DNA from: Halobaculum sp. CBA1158
GTDB taxonomy: Archaea > Halobacteriota > Halobacteria > Halobacteriales > Haloferacaceae
Length of the DNA: 64,000 nucleotides
Direction of reading: 5' to 3'
Assembly: GCF_021431925.1 (NCBI RefSeq)
Contig: NZ_CP090371.1
Span: 744,001-808,000, forward strand
Within the stretch, counting starts at the first letter, position 1. Each line of letters begins with the position of its first letter. The notes under the pieces were generated by a model that had not been told where the DNA came from, did no database searches, and saw nothing but the letters and a program-made list of their open reading frames with translations. A program made the translations under genes and the position numbers. This document shows positions 14,966 through 46,739 of this stretch, in pieces.

Positions 14966-15068
14966 CTTGGTTCGGATCCCAGCGGCTGAATCCGTCACGC
15001 GTGTGCGCCGAACGACCGCTTAAATCGTCGGCAACGACCGTTTCGACGACGCTGCGGGCCGGACGGGC

Positions 15069-15488
15069 TCAGACGATCCCGTCGGCCTCGCCGATCGGCG
15101 TGACCGAGTAGTCGACGGTCTTGGTGTCGGTGGTCGCGCGGATCTTCCCGACGAACGTCGAGATCTGTTCGAGGTTCCCTTCGAGGATGAACAGCTCCAT
15201 GCAGTTGTGGTCGCCCACGTGGCTGTGGAAGTTCGAGGCGACGATGTCCTCGTGTTCGTGACGAAGCCGCATCATGCGCTCCTCGACGGCCGTCCCCTCG
15301 TAGTCGAACACGACCGTGACGATCCCCATCAGCTCGCGGTCCTCGAGTCTGCGGTCCTCGAACTCCCCGAGGAGGTCGCGTGCGGCCTCCCGGAGGAATT
15401 CGCTGCGGCCGGTGTAGCCGTGTTCCTCGGTGAACTCGTCGATCCGGTCGACGAGGCTGTCCGGCATCGAGACGCTGACGACGCCCAT
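15069..15488 (-). CDS. nikR: Nickel-responsive regulator NikR
   Basis: 139 aa. DNA-binding repressor of nickel uptake genes. N-terminal ribbon-helix-helix [17 protein letters not shown] (residues 3-45), then a ferredoxin-like ACT domain with the square-planar Ni(II) ligands in order: [16 protein letters not shown], where the His residues and Cys correspond to the known His-His-His-Cys site. C-terminal TVDYSVTPI is conserved. No nik transport genes are in view, so its targets lie elsewhere. An AT-rich element at 15508-15520 precedes the ATG. Confidence 0.92.
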
Positions 15489-15507
15489 GTAATAACTGAA
15501 CCGCGAT

Positions 15508-15520
15508 CGATTAATAATCC
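15508..15520 (-). promoter_or_regulatory. Promoter element of nikR
   Basis: GGATTATTAATCG on the minus strand, centred about 26 bases before the nikR ATG: a TATA box for a leaderless transcript. No clear NikR operator palindrome was seen. Confidence 0.5.
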
Positions 15521-15586
15521 TTCCGCACCCGACGCGGGTCGCGGCCGATCGATCCTCTGAATCTCAGCTCTGAGTCGCGCGTGTCA

Positions 15587-15595
15587 ACGCTTATG
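15587..15595 (+). promoter_or_regulatory. TATA-like box for the CheY-like gene
   Basis: ACGCTTATG, centred 29 bases before ATG 15620. It overlaps the two upstream candidate starts and so argues against them. Confidence 0.5.
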
Positions 15596-15619
15596 TCGGC
15601 CGCCGGGGAGGACGCGGAC

Positions 15620-15982
15620 ATGACGAGACGGGTCCTCATCGTGGACGACTCGGGGTTCCAGCGGACGCTTATTCGCGGCATCCTGGAAGAGGAGTTCGAG
15701 GTCGTCGGGGAGGCCGAGAACGGCGACGAGGCGGTCGACCTGTTCGAGGAGACGCGTCCGGACCTCGTGACGATGGACATCATGATGCCCGAGCGAGACG
15801 GGATCGAGGCGACCGACGCCATCAAGGACCGCGATCCCGGCACGCGCGTCGTGATGTGCACGAGCGTCGAGCAGCGCGACCAGATGAAGCGGGCGGTGCA
15901 GGCCGGGGCCGACGGCTACGTCACCAAGCCCGTCGAGGAGGACACGCTGCGGTCGGAAGTCGAGAGCGCGCTGGCGTCCTGA
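15620..15982 (+). CDS. CheY-like response regulator (single receiver domain)
   Basis: 120 aa, a receiver domain alone. Acidic pair DD at about residues 9-10 in VLIVDDSGFQ, phospho-acceptor Asp in LVTMDIMMPERDG, Thr/Ser in VMCTSVEQRDQM and Lys in GYVTKPVEED are all present. The sequence is close in style to haloarchaeal CheY, but no chemotaxis genes are nearby, so the partner kinase is unknown. The ATG at 15620 is preferred over 15593 or GTG 15581 because a TATA-like box (ACGCTTATG, 15587-15595) overlaps those upstream starts. Confidence 0.88.
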   Translation: MTRRVLIVDDSGFQRTLIRGILEEEFEVVGEAENGDEAVDLFEETRPDLVTMDIMMPERDGIEATDAIKDRDPGTRVVMCTSVEQRDQMKRAVQAGADGYVTKPVEEDTLRSEVESALAS

Positions 15983-15995
15983 CTCCGCGGTCGGT

Positions 15996-16192
15996 TCGTC
16001 GCTATCGCTCCTCGCGACGTGCCGCCGCAGAACTGGGTCGGGGCGGATTCGAACCTCGTTCACTCCGCTCGCTAGCGCTCGCTCCGTTCCCTGCTTCGAA
16101 TCCGTCGGACACCACCGACCGCGGCGCGGACTCCTCGCTTCGCTCGTCGTCGGTGCGCCGCGAAAGGATGGGTTGGGGCGGATTCGAACCGC
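15996..16192. repeat. Long direct repeat, copy 1, carrying a tRNA-Val 3' fragment
   Basis: About 197 bases nearly identical to 16265-16461, offset 269 bases. It contains a tRNA-Val 3'-end fragment at 16035-16055 (acceptor strand plus T-arm half) and an inverted partner TTCGAATCC at 16095-16103, and ends inside the second fragment. Apparent open frames here (products such as WGGFEPRS-SNPPD) are repeat artefacts, not genes. Confidence 0.85.
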
Positions 16193-16241
16193 GGTCGTTC
16201 CGCTCGCTGACGCTCGCTGCACTCTCTGGTTCGAATCCGCC
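16170..16241 (-). repeat. tRNA-Val 3'-end fragment forming a 14-bp inverted repeat
   Basis: GGGTTGG at 16170-16176 is followed by GGCGGATTCGAACC (16177-16190), identical to the end of the intact tRNA-Val. A perfect inverted copy, GGTTCGAATCCGCC, lies at 16228-16241. The pair could form a hairpin with a 37-base loop. Confidence 0.8.
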
Positions 16242-16264
16242 ACGCACCGCCCCGGCGGCACGGC

Positions 16265-16461
16265 TCGTCGCTATCGCTCCTCGCGATGTGCCGCCTCAGG
16301 ACTGGGTTGGGGCGGATTCGAACCGCGGTCACTCCGCTCGCTAGCGCTCGCTCCGTTCCCTGCTTCGAATCCGTCGGACACCACCGACCGCGGCGCGGAC
16401 TCCTCGCTTCGCTCGTCGTCGGTGCGCCGCGAAGGGATGGGTTGGGGCGGATTCGAACCGC
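16265..16461. repeat. Long direct repeat, copy 2, ending in the intact tRNA-Val
   Basis: Second copy of the 197-base repeat. It contains the third tRNA fragment (16304-16326) with inverted partner TTCGAATCC at 16364-16372, and its end coincides with the 3' end of the functional tRNA-Val (16439-16461). This suggests duplication anchored on the tRNA 3' end. Confidence 0.85.
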
Positions 16462-16512
16462 CGGCCTGCTCCGTGTGAAGGAGCCGTCATAACCGGACTA
16501 GACCACCAACCC
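16439..16512 (-). tRNA. tRNA-Val (anticodon CAC)
   Basis: A complete 74-nt cloverleaf on the minus strand: acceptor GGGTTGG pairs with CCAACCC; anticodon stem GCTCC/GGAGC closes a 7-base loop TTCACAC with anticodon CAC (bases 16475-16477, complement GTG codon); T-arm GGCGG-TTCGAAT-CCGCC. The CCA tail is not encoded. No intron seen. Three partial copies of its 3' end lie just downstream in the tRNA sense. Confidence 0.95.
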
Positions 16513-16593
16513 GCACCCGAACGTATCCCGGTGGGAGGCTTAAGACTTACCGTCCGACGCGACGGGCGAACGCCGGCGAATCGACCGACCCGA

Positions 16594-16602
16594 GGATTAA
16601 TC
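16594..16602 (+). promoter_or_regulatory. TATA-like box for the RHH gene
   Basis: GGATTAATC, centred 29 bases before the GTG at 16627; it supports that GTG as the start of a leaderless gene. Confidence 0.5.
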
Positions 16603-16626
16603 CCGTCCGACAACGGACCCCCGGGC

Positions 16627-16875
16627 GTGACGAAGATCGAAGTCGACCTGCCCGACCGAATCGACAGCGAGATCTCGCGCCTCACAGAGCAGGGGGAGTT
16701 CCTCAACCGCAAGGAGGCCATCGAGGACTTCCTCACCCGCGGTATCCAGGCGTACGACGTGGACGAAGAGACCCGCGACGGGGAGGCCGACGGCGACCTC
16801 TTCACCAACGCGGTCGACGAACAGCAGGACCCCGCCGCGCTCGACGGCGACTCGAACGACGAGCCGACGTTCTGA
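16627..16875 (+). CDS. Ribbon-helix-helix (CopG-like) small protein
   Basis: 82 aa with a GTG start. The N-terminal KIEVDLPDRIDSEISRL strand-helix and the following NRKEAIEDFLTRGIQAY helix form a CopG/Arc-type DNA-binding fold (residues 3-45). The C-terminal half is acidic and probably unstructured. It resembles a haloarchaeal family labelled DUF7120, a match made from memory. It may act as a transcriptional regulator; its target is unknown. It converges with the small coiled-coil gene on the other strand. Confidence 0.75.
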   Translation: MTKIEVDLPDRIDSEISRLTEQGEFLNRKEAIEDFLTRGIQAYDVDEETRDGEADGDLFTNAVDEQQDPAALDGDSNDEPTF

Positions 16876-16893
16876 GTCGGCCCGTCCCGCCGA

Positions 16894-17160
16894 TCACTCG
16901 CTCGACCGGCTCTCGCGGTAGTCCCGCAGGCGCTCGCGAGCGTCCTGCACAGCCTCCTTCGCCTCGCCCTCGGCCTTCCCCGACAGCTCCTTCAGGTCCG
17001 ACTCGAGCCGGTCCAGCCGCGAGGGCTCGGGCACCTTCTCCTTGCCGACCAGCTCGCGAACGCGCTCCTCGACCGGCTCCAACTCCTCTTTGACGCCCTC
17101 TTTCGCGTGCTCGGCCGCTCGTCCGAGGTAGTACCGTGCGTCCTCGAAGTGCTTGGACAT
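16894..17160 (-). CDS. Small charged helical protein, DUF7553-like
   Basis: 88 aa, soluble, dominated by Lys/Glu-rich helices: MSKHFEDARYYLGRAAEHA, then EELEPVEERVRELVGKEK and LDRLESDLKELSGK. The pattern of heptads suggests a helical bundle or coiled coil. It resembles the haloarchaeal DUF7553 family, of unknown function. ATG at 17160; TTTATTC at about 17184-17191 upstream can serve as a TATA box. Function not assignable. Confidence 0.75.
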   Translation of the reverse strand: MSKHFEDARYYLGRAAEHAKEGVKEELEPVEERVRELVGKEKVPEPSRLDRLESDLKELSGKAEGEAKEAVQDARERLRDYRESRSSE

Positions 17161-17318
17161 ACCTGTCCTTTGCCGAACGACGAATAAATCGTTTGTGGCG
17201 GTACTCGCTGGAGCCGACCGGACCGCCAGGATCGACGGACACGGAAGCCGCGACCGTCGGGACCGTCGATGCCGTCGCCGCCGAACGCGAGGGCGCGGGG
17301 ACGCGTCGGCCGGGTCGC

Positions 17319-17855
17319 CTACTCGTAGTCCGGGGCGTCCTCCGGGACGCCGTCGCGGGCGTTGACGACCCGCGCGAACGTGAACAGCGCGTCCGAGAGG
17401 CGATTGAGGTACGCGACCGCCTCGCCGTTCACCGGTTCGTCGTCGGCCAGATCGACCGCGCGGCGTTCGGCGCGCCGGACGACCGTCCGCGCGTGATGCA
17501 GCTTCGCGCCCGCCTCGCTCCCCGACGGAAGCACGAAGTTTCGCAGCGGCTCCAGCTCCTCGTCGAGCTCGTCGATCCACGCCTCCAACTGCTCGGTGTG
17601 GGACTCGCGGACGACCGGGTCGTCCTCGTCGGGGTCGGGATTGGCGAAGTCCGCCTGGAGCACGTGGAGGTGGTCCTGCACGCCGCGGAGCATCTCGTCG
17701 ACGTCGTCGTACCCCGTCGGGCGGACCGTGCCGACGAGCGCGTTCGCCTCGTCGACGGTGCCGTACGCCTCGATGCGCCGGGAGGTCTTCGACACCCGGG
17801 ACATGTCCCGGAGGTCGGTCTTTCCCTCGTCGCCGCGGCCGGTGTAGATCTTCAT
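17319..17855 (-). CDS. Cob(I)alamin adenosyltransferase, PduO type
   Basis: 178 aa. Transfers the adenosyl group of ATP to cob(I)alamin to make coenzyme B12. The N-terminal MKIYTGRGDEGKTDL is the ATP-binding signature, followed by RIEAYGTVDEANALVG, and the C-terminal VVRRAERRAV with YLNRLSDALFTFAR carries conserved Arg and Asp of the active site. The length fits the PduO family. It is 4 bases after a glutaredoxin-like gene on the same strand, so a thiol-redox partner in cobalt reduction is conceivable (inference). Confidence 0.93.
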   Translation of the reverse strand: MKIYTGRGDEGKTDLRDMSRVSKTSRRIEAYGTVDEANALVGTVRPTGYDDVDEMLRGVQDHLHVLQADFANPDPDEDDPVVRESHTEQLEAWIDELDEELEPLRNFVLPSGSEAGAKLHHARTVVRRAERRAVDLADDEPVNGEAVAYLNRLSDALFTFARVVNARDGVPEDAPDYE

Positions 17856-40275: not shown

Positions 40276-42736
40276 ACCCACCATCCACGACAGGATAGAC
40301 GAGGCGGCCGCCGTCGTCGGGGGGCTCTGGCCGATACACTCGTTCGTGACGGCGAACCCCCTCTCCGGGTTCGAGGACCGGCCGTTCGACGAGGCGGTCG
40401 GACGGGCGGCCGACCTGCTGGGCGGCCGTGGCTACCCGAGCGCCGAGACGTTCCGCGGAGCGATGGAGCACGGTCAGATCGACCCGGAGATACTCGAATC
40501 GAAACTCGCCGAGGCCGGCTACGAGGGCGACCCCGAACTCCTGCTCGATCGCATGGCCGAGGCGGCCGACGCGGACACGCTCGCGGCCGACGGTGATACG
40601 GTCGACGCGGACGAGCACGCGGCCGACGATGACGCCGCCGGCGACGCCCGTACCGCCCGGGACCGCGCCGAGCAGATACTGTGCAAGTGGCTGTCGGCCT
40701 TCCTCGACGAGGGGAGCGCCCACTGGTCGATGCCGAACCGCGAGGCGGGGTTCTACACCGCCTTTCGCGAGGTCGCCCGCCACGACACCGAGATCCCCGA
40801 CGAGGGAGTCGCCGCCGATCTTCCCGAAACGCCGACGGAGGCCATCGAGGCCGCGCTGGAGCCGTATACCGAGGATCGGTGGGTACGGATATTCGAGGAG
40901 CAGTTGGCCGCGCTCCCCGGCTGGACCGGCCTCATCAAACAGCGCGCCGAGGACGAGGGCGCGTGGCAGTCGGCTTGCCCGATCACGCTCGCGGGGTATC
41001 TCGCGGCCCGTCTGGCGTTGCTCGACGCCTTCGGCGTCGACATCGAGCCCTCGACGACCCCCGACGGCGTCGAGGTCGACGCGGGCGACGAACTCGCCGA
41101 GGCGTTCCTGAGCGCGTGGGAGGCGAGCTATCGAACCGAACTCGTCGAGCGCGTCGCCGCCGAGGGCCGGTCGCTCGACCGGCGTGACTCCTCGGGTCGC
41201 CCGGACGCGCAACTGGTGTTCTGTATCGACACCCGGTCGGAGGTCGTTCGCCGTCACATCGAGGCCGCGGGCGACTACGAGACCCACGGCTACGCCGGAT
41301 TCTTCGGGATCCCGATGGAGTACCGGGGCTACGACGCCGACGTGTCGGTCGACGCCTGCCCGCCGATCCTCGAACCGGAGCACCACATCACCGAGGTACC
41401 GACCGACAGGGACACGCAGGCGAGACACGACCGCCTGTCGGGCGTCCGCGAGGTGGTCGACGAGGTCATCGAGACGCTCGAGGCCAACGCCGCCACGGCC
41501 TACGGATACGTCGAGACCGCGGGGAGCGGCTACGGTCTCGCGGTCGCGGCCCGCACGCTCCTCCCCGGTCGCGTCCACGACCTGCTCGACGTCGCCGACG
41601 ACGCCGTGCCGGACGACCACGAGTTCTGTGATCAGATCGTCCGCCACCAGCACGAGTACGCCGGCGACCTCCCGGTGGGCCTGACGACCGAGGAGCGGGT
41701 CGAGTACGCCGCGACCGCCTTCGAACTGATGGGCTGGGAGGAGTTCGGTCGGCTCGTCGTCTTCGCCGGCCACGCCAGCGAGACGGCCAACAACCCCTAC
41801 GACTCGAGTCTGGACTGCGGCGCTTGTGCCGGCAACCCCGGCGGCCCGAACGCCCGCGTCCTCGCGGCCATCTGCAACGACGAGACCGTGCGCGAGCGGC
41901 TCCGCGACCGCGGCATCGACGTGCCCGAGGACACCGTGTTCCTCGCCGGCCAGCACAACACGACCACAGACGAGATCGAACTGTACGACGGTCACGTCCC
42001 CGAGAGCCACGCCGAGGATCTCACGCGGCTCCGCGCCGACCTCGAGACCGCCCGCGCCGACGCGACCGCGGAGCGCGCCGCCGACATGGGCGTCGAGGGC
42101 GCATCGAGCGTCCGCGAGACGGAGCGCCGGGCCGCGGACTGGGCCGAGACCCGTCCGGAGTGGGGACTGGCCGGCAACGCCGCGTTCGTCGTCGGTCCGC
42201 GGGCGCTCACGGCGGACCTCGACCTCGACGGCCGCTCGTTCCTCCACTCGTACGACTGGTCGACCGACCCCGCCGGCGACGCGCTCGAGGCGATCCTGAC
42301 CGGGCCGATGGTCGTCACCCAGTGGATCAACAGCCAGTACTACTTCTCGACGGTCGACAACTCGGTGTACGGGAGCGGGTCGAAGGTGACGCAGAACCCG
42401 GTCGGCAACGTCGGCGTCCACCAGGGCAACGGGGGCGACCTGATGACCGGCCTCCCGCTCCAGTCGCTGATGGCCGCCGACGGCGAACCGTACCACCAGC
42501 CGCTTCGGCTCTCGACGGTCGTCCACGCGCCCGTCGACCGCGTCACCGACGTTCTGGCCGACCACGGAGCGGTGACCGATCTGCTGGACAACGACTGGCT
42601 CTCGCTGACGGTCGTCGACCCGACCCGGGATCACCGCGCGTTCCGCTACGAACGGGACCTGAACTGGACGCCGGCGTCCGAGGTGGGGGAGGTCCGCCCG
42701 TCCACGGCGACCGCCCCGACGGCCGCGGACGACTGA
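40265..42736 (+). CDS. dabA: Inorganic carbon transporter subunit DabA (UPF0753/DUF2309)
   Basis: 823 aa. Cytoplasmic, carbonic-anhydrase-like subunit. Zinc-site candidates: LVFCIDTRSEVVRRH (Cys and Asp) and the HAS...DCGACAGNPGGPNARV segment (His and Cys), matching the known Cys-Asp-His-Cys set. N-terminal GGLWPIHSFVTANPLSGF is family-typical. An Asp/Ala-rich insertion (about residues 100-135) looks haloarchaeal. Starts inside dabB (ATGAGTACTGA), so co-translated. Confidence 0.92.
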   Translation: MSTEPTIHDRIDEAAAVVGGLWPIHSFVTANPLSGFEDRPFDEAVGRAADLLGGRGYPSAETFRGAMEHGQIDPEILESKLAEAGYEGDPELLLDRMAEAADADTLAADGDTVDADEHAADDDAAGDARTARDRAEQILCKWLSAFLDEGSAHWSMPNREAGFYTAFREVARHDTEIPDEGVAADLPETPTEAIEAALEPYTEDRWVRIFEEQLAALPGWTGLIKQRAEDEGAWQSACPITLAGYLAARLALLDAFGVDIEPSTTPDGVEVDAGDELAEAFLSAWEASYRTELVERVAAEGRSLDRRDSSGRPDAQLVFCIDTRSEVVRRHIEAAGDYETHGYAGFFGIPMEYRGYDADVSVDACPPILEPEHHITEVPTDRDTQARHDRLSGVREVVDEVIETLEANAATAYGYVETAGSGYGLAVAARTLLPGRVHDLLDVADDAVPDDHEFCDQIVRHQHEYAGDLPVGLTTEERVEYAATAFELMGWEEFGRLVVFAGHASETANNPYDSSLDCGACAGNPGGPNARVLAAICNDETVRERLRDRGIDVPEDTVFLAGQHNTTTDEIELYDGHVPESHAEDLTRLRADLETARADATAERAADMGVEGASSVRETERRAADWAETRPEWGLAGNAAFVVGPRALTADLDLDGRSFLHSYDWSTDPAGDALEAILTGPMVVTQWINSQYYFSTVDNSVYGSGSKVTQNPVGNVGVHQGNGGDLMTGLPLQSLMAADGEPYHQPLRLSTVVHAPVDRVTDVLADHGAVTDLLDNDWLSLTVVDPTRDHRAFRYERDLNWTPASEVGEVRPSTATAPTAADD

Positions 42737-45271: not shown

Positions 45272-46447
45272 ATGAGCGACACCACACTCGCGGCACCGAA
45301 GGCGAGGGAGAAACTCTACGAGCGCGTTCGCAGGGACGCCCCGTTCGACCGGAAGGCCGAGGACGCCCTGGAACTGGGCCGACGGTACCTGGGCGTGGAG
45401 AACGGCCATCTCACAAGGATCGATCGGGAAACCGATCACTGGGAGGCGATCGCCAGCACCGATCCGGATGGCGGACGGTTCCACGCGGGCCTGGAACTGG
45501 ACCTGGACGAGACGTACTGCCGTCGGACCGTCGAGGCGGACGACCAGGTTGCGCTCCACGACGCGCCGGAACAGGGGTGGGTCGACGACCCCGCCTACGA
45601 GGCCCACGAGCTCCGCTGCTATCAGGGGACGACGCTCGTCCTCGACGGGGATCCCTACGGGACGGTGTGCTTCGTCTCGTCGAACGTCCGCGAGGAGTTC
45701 GACGACGACGAACTGCTGTTCGCCGAACTCGTCGCCCGGCTGCTCGAACGCGAACTCGAGCGGGAGCGACACGAGGCCGAACTCGAACGACAGACCGCCC
45801 TCGCAACCGTACTCAACCGCGTTCTCCGGCACAACCTCCGGAACGACATGGGCGTCATCCGCGGCCGCACCCGGCTCATGGCCGAGGAGCTGGAGGACGA
45901 CTCCGCGGGCGAGGTCGTCCTCGACCACGTCGACGGCCTCCTCGAACTCAGCGAGAAGGCGCGCGAGCTGGACCGGGTCGTTTCCGCCGAGTTCGAGTAC
46001 GAGTCCGTAGACGTGCCGACGCTCGTCGAGGGAGTGGCCGAGTCGGTCGCGGAGGACTACCCCGCTGCGTCCGTGTCCGTCGACGCCGACGGGCGGGCCA
46101 CCACCGACCTGCTGCCGAGCTTCGAGCGCGCCGTCGAGGAACTCGTCGAGAACGCCGTCAAACACGGCGGCGAGGAGCCGACGGTCGCGATCACCGCCGA
46201 GACGGTCCCGAACGCCGTCGAGATCCGGATCGCCGACGACGGCCCCGGCCTCCCGGACCAGGAGGTCGAGGTGTTGAACGCGGGGACCGAGTCACCTCTC
46301 CTCCACGGGAGCGGACTGGGCCTGTGGCTCGTCCGCTGGATCGCGTCCGGACACGGCGGATCGGTCGAGGCGACCGACACGGACGACGGGACGATGATGA
46401 GGGTGTCGGTCCCGCGAACGCCCCGGTTGACTGGCGTCGACCGCTGA
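45272..46447 (+). CDS. GAF-domain sensor histidine kinase
   Basis: 391 aa, soluble. Residues about 20-165 form a GAF domain (ELGRRYLGVENGHLTRID, with GTTLVLDGDPYGTVCFV). The H-box RVLRHNLRNDMGVIRGR (about residue 190), N-box ELVENAVKHGG, G1 ADDGPGLP and G2 GSGLGLWLVRWIA are complete, so it should autophosphorylate. No response regulator next to it. The last codons (GVDR) lie in a tandem repeat. Confidence 0.92.
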   Translation: MSDTTLAAPKAREKLYERVRRDAPFDRKAEDALELGRRYLGVENGHLTRIDRETDHWEAIASTDPDGGRFHAGLELDLDETYCRRTVEADDQVALHDAPEQGWVDDPAYEAHELRCYQGTTLVLDGDPYGTVCFVSSNVREEFDDDELLFAELVARLLERELERERHEAELERQTALATVLNRVLRHNLRNDMGVIRGRTRLMAEELEDDSAGEVVLDHVDGLLELSEKARELDRVVSAEFEYESVDVPTLVEGVAESVAEDYPAASVSVDADGRATTDLLPSFERAVEELVENAVKHGGEEPTVAITAETVPNAVEIRIADDGPGLPDQEVEVLNAGTESPLLHGSGLGLWLVRWIASGHGGSVEATDTDDGTMMRVSVPRTPRLTGVDR

Positions 46448-46503
46448 CGGGCATCGACCGCTGACGGGCGTCGACCGCCGACAGGTATCGACCGCCGACG
46501 GGC
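46433..46503. repeat. Four-unit 17-bp tandem repeat at the kinase 3' end
   Basis: Four units GGCGTCGACCGCTGACG, GGCATCGACCGCTGACG, GGCGTCGACCGCCGACA, GGTATCGACCGCCGACG in exact register, beginning inside the last codons of the GAF kinase gene. Confidence 0.85.
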
Positions 46504-46739
46504 GAGACTGTGACCTCAGACCCCGTGGCCGTCGGACCGTGGAGGCGTGCCGGCGTCAGTAAGTGACAGAACGAGGATAGAAGTGCGCTTCAGCGAGCGC
46601 TTTTGATCCCCCGCGATCACGACCCGGACATGCGACACGGTCCCCGACCGCCCAGGCTCCAACGGCGACGGTCCCGACCACGGCGACGGCTCCGACCGCC
46701 GCGAGGCTCCCGACCGGACGTCCGACGCGGGGGTCGTCG

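Follow-up and report, generated by a model that had tools for sequence, protein, structure and literature searches.

The T stem-loop and the 3′ end of tRNA genes are known att sublocations in archaea (PMC8371274), and 22 nt of a tRNA are duplicated by a Haloquadratum provirus (PMC3119063). A partial 3′ tRNA duplicate downstream of the gene, at the T-loop/3′-end sublocation, is also what the att repeats of tRNA-integrated elements (SSV, pNOB8, SNJ2-type integrases) have in common with the haloarchaeal tRNA-end units described here. In contrast to those repeats, the units are free of integrase and cargo, have a class-conserved two-hairpin core, stand in tandem and are inherited vertically. Integron cassette arrays and their attC sites likewise show tandem units bounded at G|TT, an imperfect strand-specific hairpin, a variable apical part and reordering, whereas the tRNA-end units contain no ORFs, depart from the attC R′ consensus and are also reassorted inside the unit. 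This consensus is GTTRRRY, and to our knowledge no integron integrase is known from haloarchaea. In a screen of 6718 archaeal genomes, integrons were reported only from MAGs of nine phyla, with haloarchaea unmentioned (PMC9668308).

Other described repeats share single features with the units. REP/BIME elements are short non-coding hairpin modules in mosaic and tandem combinations, but they are dispersed intergenically, whereas the haloarchaeal units lie behind tRNAs only and carry a tRNA copy; REP surveys (PMC12306157) treat elements other than the tRNA-end units. The SMRs, PATEs and MITEs of Haloquadratum (PMC3119063) resemble the units as ~110-bp non-coding repeats with inverted repeats, but are scattered and use other mobile elements as targets, unlike the units, which are tandem, class-wide and located at tRNA 3′ ends. 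In Methanopyrus kandleri (PMC5217627), a palindrome forms a hairpin 10 bp downstream of tRNAs, at about half of the tRNA genes; it differs in being 18 bp long, in having no tRNA copy or array and in being reported as M. kandleri-specific. The intergenic terminators of Haloferax volcanii consist of T stretches with a final C, hairpins precede some of them, and two termination sites are reported for tRNA-Pro (PMC7237163). No description of tRNA-end units was found in the open-access literature, a search that could miss a subscription paper, and they are apparently a class-wide repeat family without an earlier description in the literature covered. In the reading that we favor, with a probability of roughly 0.55, the tRNA-Val locus analyzed below is one array of this haloarchaea-specific, non-coding unit family, and the array is the store from which the 3′ end of the tRNA is recycled.

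The tRNA-Val(CAC) array of Halobaculum

The window, a stretch of 64,000 nt from Halobaculum sp. CBA1158, corresponds to positions 744001–808000 of contig 1 of the 3.32-Mb genome and contains a single tRNA gene, tRNA-Val(CAC), identified by ARAGORN on the minus strand (Table 1). Downstream of its 3′ end and on the same strand, copies of this end follow at a spacing of ~135 bp, and the array received the top TRF score in the window (614, with a period of 135). The original prediction had placed three such copies, in tRNA orientation, at 16304, 16170 and 16035 and had assigned to each an inverted T-arm partner, one of them a perfect 14-bp inverted repeat. The copies were found within one base of these positions and every partner was located, the middle one forming the perfect repeat. 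A 197-base block had also been predicted to recur at an offset of 269; the offset was correct, and the measured length is 201 nt with 96% identity. The order of the units is A-B-A′-b(truncated), i.e. a duplicated dimer, and the 201-bp repeat therefore represents the duplicated A-B pair. Compared with H1 of its own array, the truncated fourth unit had a score of 30, unmatched by other arrays. When positions 15000–17500 were scanned with Rfam 15, the tRNA alone scored above the gathering score, and no other known structured RNA family was matched.

Table 1. Features of the tRNA-Val(CAC) locus, in window coordinates.
Feature	Position	Strand	Evidence or remark
tRNA-Val(CAC), intact	16438–16512	−	ARAGORN; Rfam RF00005, 63.7 bits
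Last 21 nt of tRNA-Val(CAC) (G53-N73), GTTCGAATCCGCCCCAACCCA	16438–16458	−	
Unit 1 body (A), 114 nt	16324–16437	−	R1 match G000:C1:760311-760375
Unit 1 H1 region	16374–16437	−	
Unit 1 inverted T-arm, CGGATTCGAA	16364–16373	−	
Unit 1 H2, GCAGGGAACGGAGCGAGCGCTAGCGAGCGGAGTGACCGCG	16324–16363	−	
Copy 1 of tRNA-Val 3′ end	16303–16323	−	21/21 identical
Unit 2 body (B of the Val array), 113 nt	16190–16302	−	R1 match 760177-760241
Unit 2 H1 region	16242–16302	−	
Unit 2 inverted T-arm	16228–16241	−	Perfect 14-bp inverted repeat with 16177–16190
Unit 2 H2	16190–16227	−	
Copy 2 of tRNA-Val 3′ end	16169–16189	−	21/21
Unit 3 body (A′, near-duplicate of unit 1), 114 nt	16055–16168	−	R1 match 760042-760106
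Unit 3 H1 region	16105–16168	−	
Unit 3 inverted T-arm	16095–16104	−	
Unit 3 H2	16055–16094	−	GTGAACGAG in place of GTGACCGCG of unit 1
Copy 3 of tRNA-Val 3′ end, CCCCGACCCA	16034–16054	−	20/21
Truncated fourth unit, first ~42 nt of unit-2-like H1	15992–16033	−	Resemblance to own-array H1
201-bp direct repeat, distal copy	15992–16192	.	Repeat search; partner 16261–16461, 96%, offset 269
201-bp direct repeat, tRNA-proximal copy	16261–16461	.	Repeat search

The gene of a CheY-type response regulator (15581–15982, plus strand) is convergent with the array and abuts the truncated unit, with its stop at 15982, and that of a NikR-like nickel regulator (15069–15488, minus strand) lies past the distal end. 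Beyond the 5′ end of the tRNA, the divergent segment 16623–16875 (plus strand) encodes a small ribbon-helix-helix-like protein (VTKIEVDLPDRIDSEISRLTEQGEFLNRKEAIEDFL...) without a Pfam match. Further short tandem repeats of the window are located at 46428–46504 and 40563–40632 (17/34-bp and 36-bp periods).

Architecture and fold of the tRNA-end units

A tRNA-end unit is composed of a pyrimidine tract, which adjoins the preceding tRNA end, an H1 hairpin, an inverted T-loop/T-stem, an H2 hairpin of the form TCAGGGAG...CGACCGTG and a copy of tRNA positions 54–73. The copy spans the sequence from the T-loop boundary (G53/T54) to the discriminator base and lacks CCA. H2 occurs as type A (nCAGGGAG, an apical stem and CGACCGnG) and as types B and C. 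The units are 80–190 bp long, contain no ORFs or element-sized cargo, and stand head to tail behind the tRNA gene in the sense of its transcription, with 0–6 units per locus. Three units of the window possess H1, the inverted T-arm, H2 and the 54–73 copy behind the tRNA. The genome as a whole has 24 units behind 16 of its 44 tRNAs, so that more than half of the tRNAs are without an intact unit, and no T-arm copies were found upstream of any of the 44. The matching architecture behind these 16 tRNAs and across the class excludes a chance origin of the Val array.

The two arms of H2 covary (score of 0.227 vs 0.090 in shuffles, 0/500), and 57 of 92 units across the class have TCAGGGAG as their exact 5′ box, which the search had left free. 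The conservation of this box amid a diverging remainder suggests that it may be a recognized signal. In H1, the paired YGAR motif (tandem G-A mismatches) was present in tRNA sense in 151 of 174 units and in the antisense form in 10 of 174, compared with 19/132 and 14/132 in the control. Of 125 units, 119 have the better fold on the tRNA-sense strand under RNA parameters and 114 under DNA parameters, and H2 was found in sense 143 times and never inverted relative to the tRNA. The strand-specific fold, the YGAR bias and the lack of inverted H2 indicate that the folding species is a single strand of tRNA sense, either RNA or ssDNA; sense-strand stability is common to both and does not discriminate between them. 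Opposite the T-arm bases, G.T is favored over A.C (0.44 vs 0.12).

If the folding species is RNA, the units could be transcribed trailers that act in tRNA 3′-end formation, fail-safe terminators or structured 3′ UTRs, and the copied tRNA end could compete with the 3′ half of the tRNA itself or sequester it. Such a function is consistent with the invariable co-direction of units and tRNA, with a fold that favors the transcribed sense, with the preference for G.T and with T-tracts at similar frequency behind tRNAs (72/122) and behind copies (64/110), and it agrees with the T-stretch terminators, in part hairpin-preceded, and the two tRNA-Pro termination sites of H. volcanii (PMC7237163). However, GC mutation bias is also able to yield G.T over A.C, most tRNAs of this genome have no intact unit, and RNA function alone leaves both the match of 54–73 to the local tRNA and the tandem amplification unexplained. 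We regard it as a possible, though not a likely, account of the units.

Distribution across haloarchaea and relation to mobile elements

The 3′-fragment arrays recur at other haloarchaeal tRNA loci. A covariance model (R1) built on 37 units, all of type A, matched at least 138 of 145 haloarchaeal genomes and at least 55 of 58 genera (~95% of genomes); these counts are lower bounds in which the best first-look candidates were scored, and type B and C units are under-counted because R1 derives from type-A units and was also the means by which most congener loci were retrieved. In a phylum-wide sample of 247 genomes, R1 matched at least 44, all of them haloarchaea (44 of the 48 sampled), and had no match in the ~200 non-haloarchaeal genomes. 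The seven haloarchaeal genomes without an R1 match (G022, G028, G102, G024, G036, G136 and G148) would be useful for tracing a co-lost factor; the first three belong to one genus (g21), the remaining members of which have only one or two R1 matches.

Named genomes were also scanned with the pattern CGACCGYGGTTCRAATCC, in which the 3′ half of H2 was fixed beforehand, and at least 119 stretches matched. The 122 matches listed span more than 25 named haloarchaeal genera and comprise 101 units behind a tRNA (66 of them with a 21/21 copy), nine matches inside intact tRNAs, three degenerate copies behind a tRNA and nine matches with no tRNA in reach, mostly at contig or locus ends. Haloferax is among the genera with units, which H. 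larsenii has at loci L155 and L173. The association with tRNAs, on which the original prediction depended, held for 101 of the 104 evaluable non-tRNA matches listed, for 29 of the 30 top class-wide loci, which have copies behind a tRNA, and for all 30 loci checked in two further genomes. With as many as two dozen units in a genome and a presence in ~95% of the sampled haloarchaea, the family touches essential tRNA genes and provides a class-wide marker for annotating haloarchaeal genomes.

The original prediction had offered repeated integration at an attachment site as one explanation, in which the copies would be attL/attR remnants, left as footprints by viruses or plasmids that repeatedly integrated at the tRNA and excised again. 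The copies are indeed 3′ tRNA duplicates in the same orientation, at a known archaeal att sublocation (PMC8371274), and resemble the 22-nt duplication of the Haloquadratum provirus (PMC3119063). PF00589 proteins are encoded in this genome; its integrases are all at least 37 kb away from every chromosomal tRNA, and no IS200 transposase lies within 17 kb of one. The unit core had no match among 50,697 phage records. In viral contigs, the pattern matched only twice, once in an intact tRNA and once without a nearby tRNA, and the type-B pattern was not found. The sole plasmid match was an 827-kb replicon with the probably orthologous tRNA-Val beside cobO. An H1 and H2 core at class-wide fixed boundaries, conserved, non-coding and vertically inherited, is not what MGE remnants would leave, so integration is unsupported and we consider such footprints very improbable. 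Partial tRNA copies behind haloarchaeal tRNAs should thus not be taken, by themselves, as evidence of integrated viruses.

The 827-kb replicon belongs to Natronorubrum bangense (locus L315; NZ_CP031306.1, 200313-205377), where a type-B-like unit stands behind tRNA-Val(CAC) near a cobalamin adenosyltransferase gene (cobO), the same gene type as in the window. Because of this shared neighbor, the Val(CAC) unit locus is probably orthologous across families.

Inheritance and turnover of the arrays

At variant positions of the tRNA, the copy has the base of the local tRNA in 114 of 121 cases and the commonest base in 4 of 121 (58 loci; those with a 3′ end more than four positions off the commonest form were left out because ARAGORN misnames some intron-containing tRNAs). 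Of 98 unit bodies, 64 had their nearest relative behind the same tRNA of a different species and four behind a different tRNA of their own genome, so spread between tRNAs within a genome is rare. Units are inherited with their tRNA, vary in number between species and amplify in tandem. The same figures (64/98 vs 4/98) point to vertical descent without the transposition-like dispersal of MITEs or SMRs, and the dispersal typical of REP/BIME was not seen either, as the checked matches were linked to tRNAs. Orthologous unit bodies are strongly diverged, even within a genus.

Changes in unit number and composition are apparent between close relatives. In congeners, Val(CAC) has 0, 1 or 3 units; in genome G048, four identical 111-bp units stand in tandem behind tRNA-Lys, and evenly spaced runs occur in genomes G131 and G073. 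Modules have been reassorted between sister species at Leu(TAA), Ser(GGA), Gly(GCC) and Glu(TTC): the Leu(TAA) unit of G005 combines H1 of unit 1 with H2 of unit 2 of G007, while between the same genomes Gly(GCC) shares H1 with differing H2, and Glu(TTC) shares H2 with differing H1. Compared with congener G001, this genome has a swapped unit order at Lys(TTT) and is its empty counterpart at Lys(CTT), where a similar flank follows straight after the tRNA. The joints of module exchange are the inverted T-arm and the 20-nt tRNA copy, as expected for deletion or duplication between short direct repeats. It is not the case that every array tail is a duplicated H1: homology of the tail to its own H1, which simple tandem duplication would produce, reached significance in just 10 of the 82 arrays, and many arrays are therefore old mosaics. 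The identical tandem units, the duplicated dimer and the reassortment at short direct repeats fit the other explanations in the original prediction, slippage and an expanding tRNA-borne repeat.

In the favored reading, with its recycling of the tRNA 3′ end, the pattern of changes points to recombination or replication slippage between short direct repeats as the probable mechanism, and the functional last 20 nt of the tRNA would be whichever copy stands first in the array. The copies would be identical to the local tRNA because each is periodically tested as tRNA sequence. A 20-nt tract is, however, short for ordinary homologous recombination. Haloarchaea are polyploid, and unequal exchange between chromosome copies would thus be available. 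H2, a single strand of tRNA sense that is never inverted, may be kept by selection through a class-wide recognition factor, which would read it as RNA (trailer or termination) or as ssDNA. The units offer a natural system for the concerted evolution of a gene and its own fragments, and the conservation of H2 points to a putative hairpin-recognizing factor.

Slippage could also have acted on a non-adaptive repeat that was seeded once in the haloarchaeal ancestor and carries no recognized signal. Tandem runs, mosaics and the range of 0–6 copies per locus would follow from it, but the 57 of 92 exact H2 boxes in strongly diverging unit bodies, the lack of inverted H2 and the restriction of R1 matches to haloarchaea in the phylum-wide sample would not, and we think it rather improbable. 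A site-specific system similar to attC, in which folded single strands are the substrate of a recombinase at G53|T54 and the unit is a cassette with an attC-like imperfect hairpin at its end, would account for the constant G|TTC boundary, the imperfect stem with conserved boxes, the variable apical part, the strand-specific fold and the reordered units. However, reassortment also occurs at the inverted T-arm, which is unexpected from a reaction at G|TT only, a candidate recombinase was not identified, and the published survey of archaeal integrons (PMC9668308) makes no mention of haloarchaea. The units read GTTCRAA where attC has its R′ box, with C as the fourth base (GTTCRA); the likeness to attC, and to an integron or CALIN, stops at the boundary and the hairpin, and we find a system of this kind improbable. 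More tentatively, recycling from the array may mean that tRNA genes are 'open-ended', with their last 20 nt exchangeable and continually replaced from the adjacent cassette-like array through a hairpin-recognizing factor. This class-wide factor may be a putative recombinase or an RNA-binding protein that reads the sense-strand hairpin.

A second repeat of ~84 nt, rich in CTCACTCCGTTCGCTC and with a terminal copy restricted to the T-stem/acceptor end, is present in tRNA-Arg arrays, at loci L017 (G000:C1:1529470 region) and L029 and in the tail of L070. In genome G048, the tRNA-Lys array (locus L233) contains a copy that resembles tRNA-Arg, the one chimera observed.
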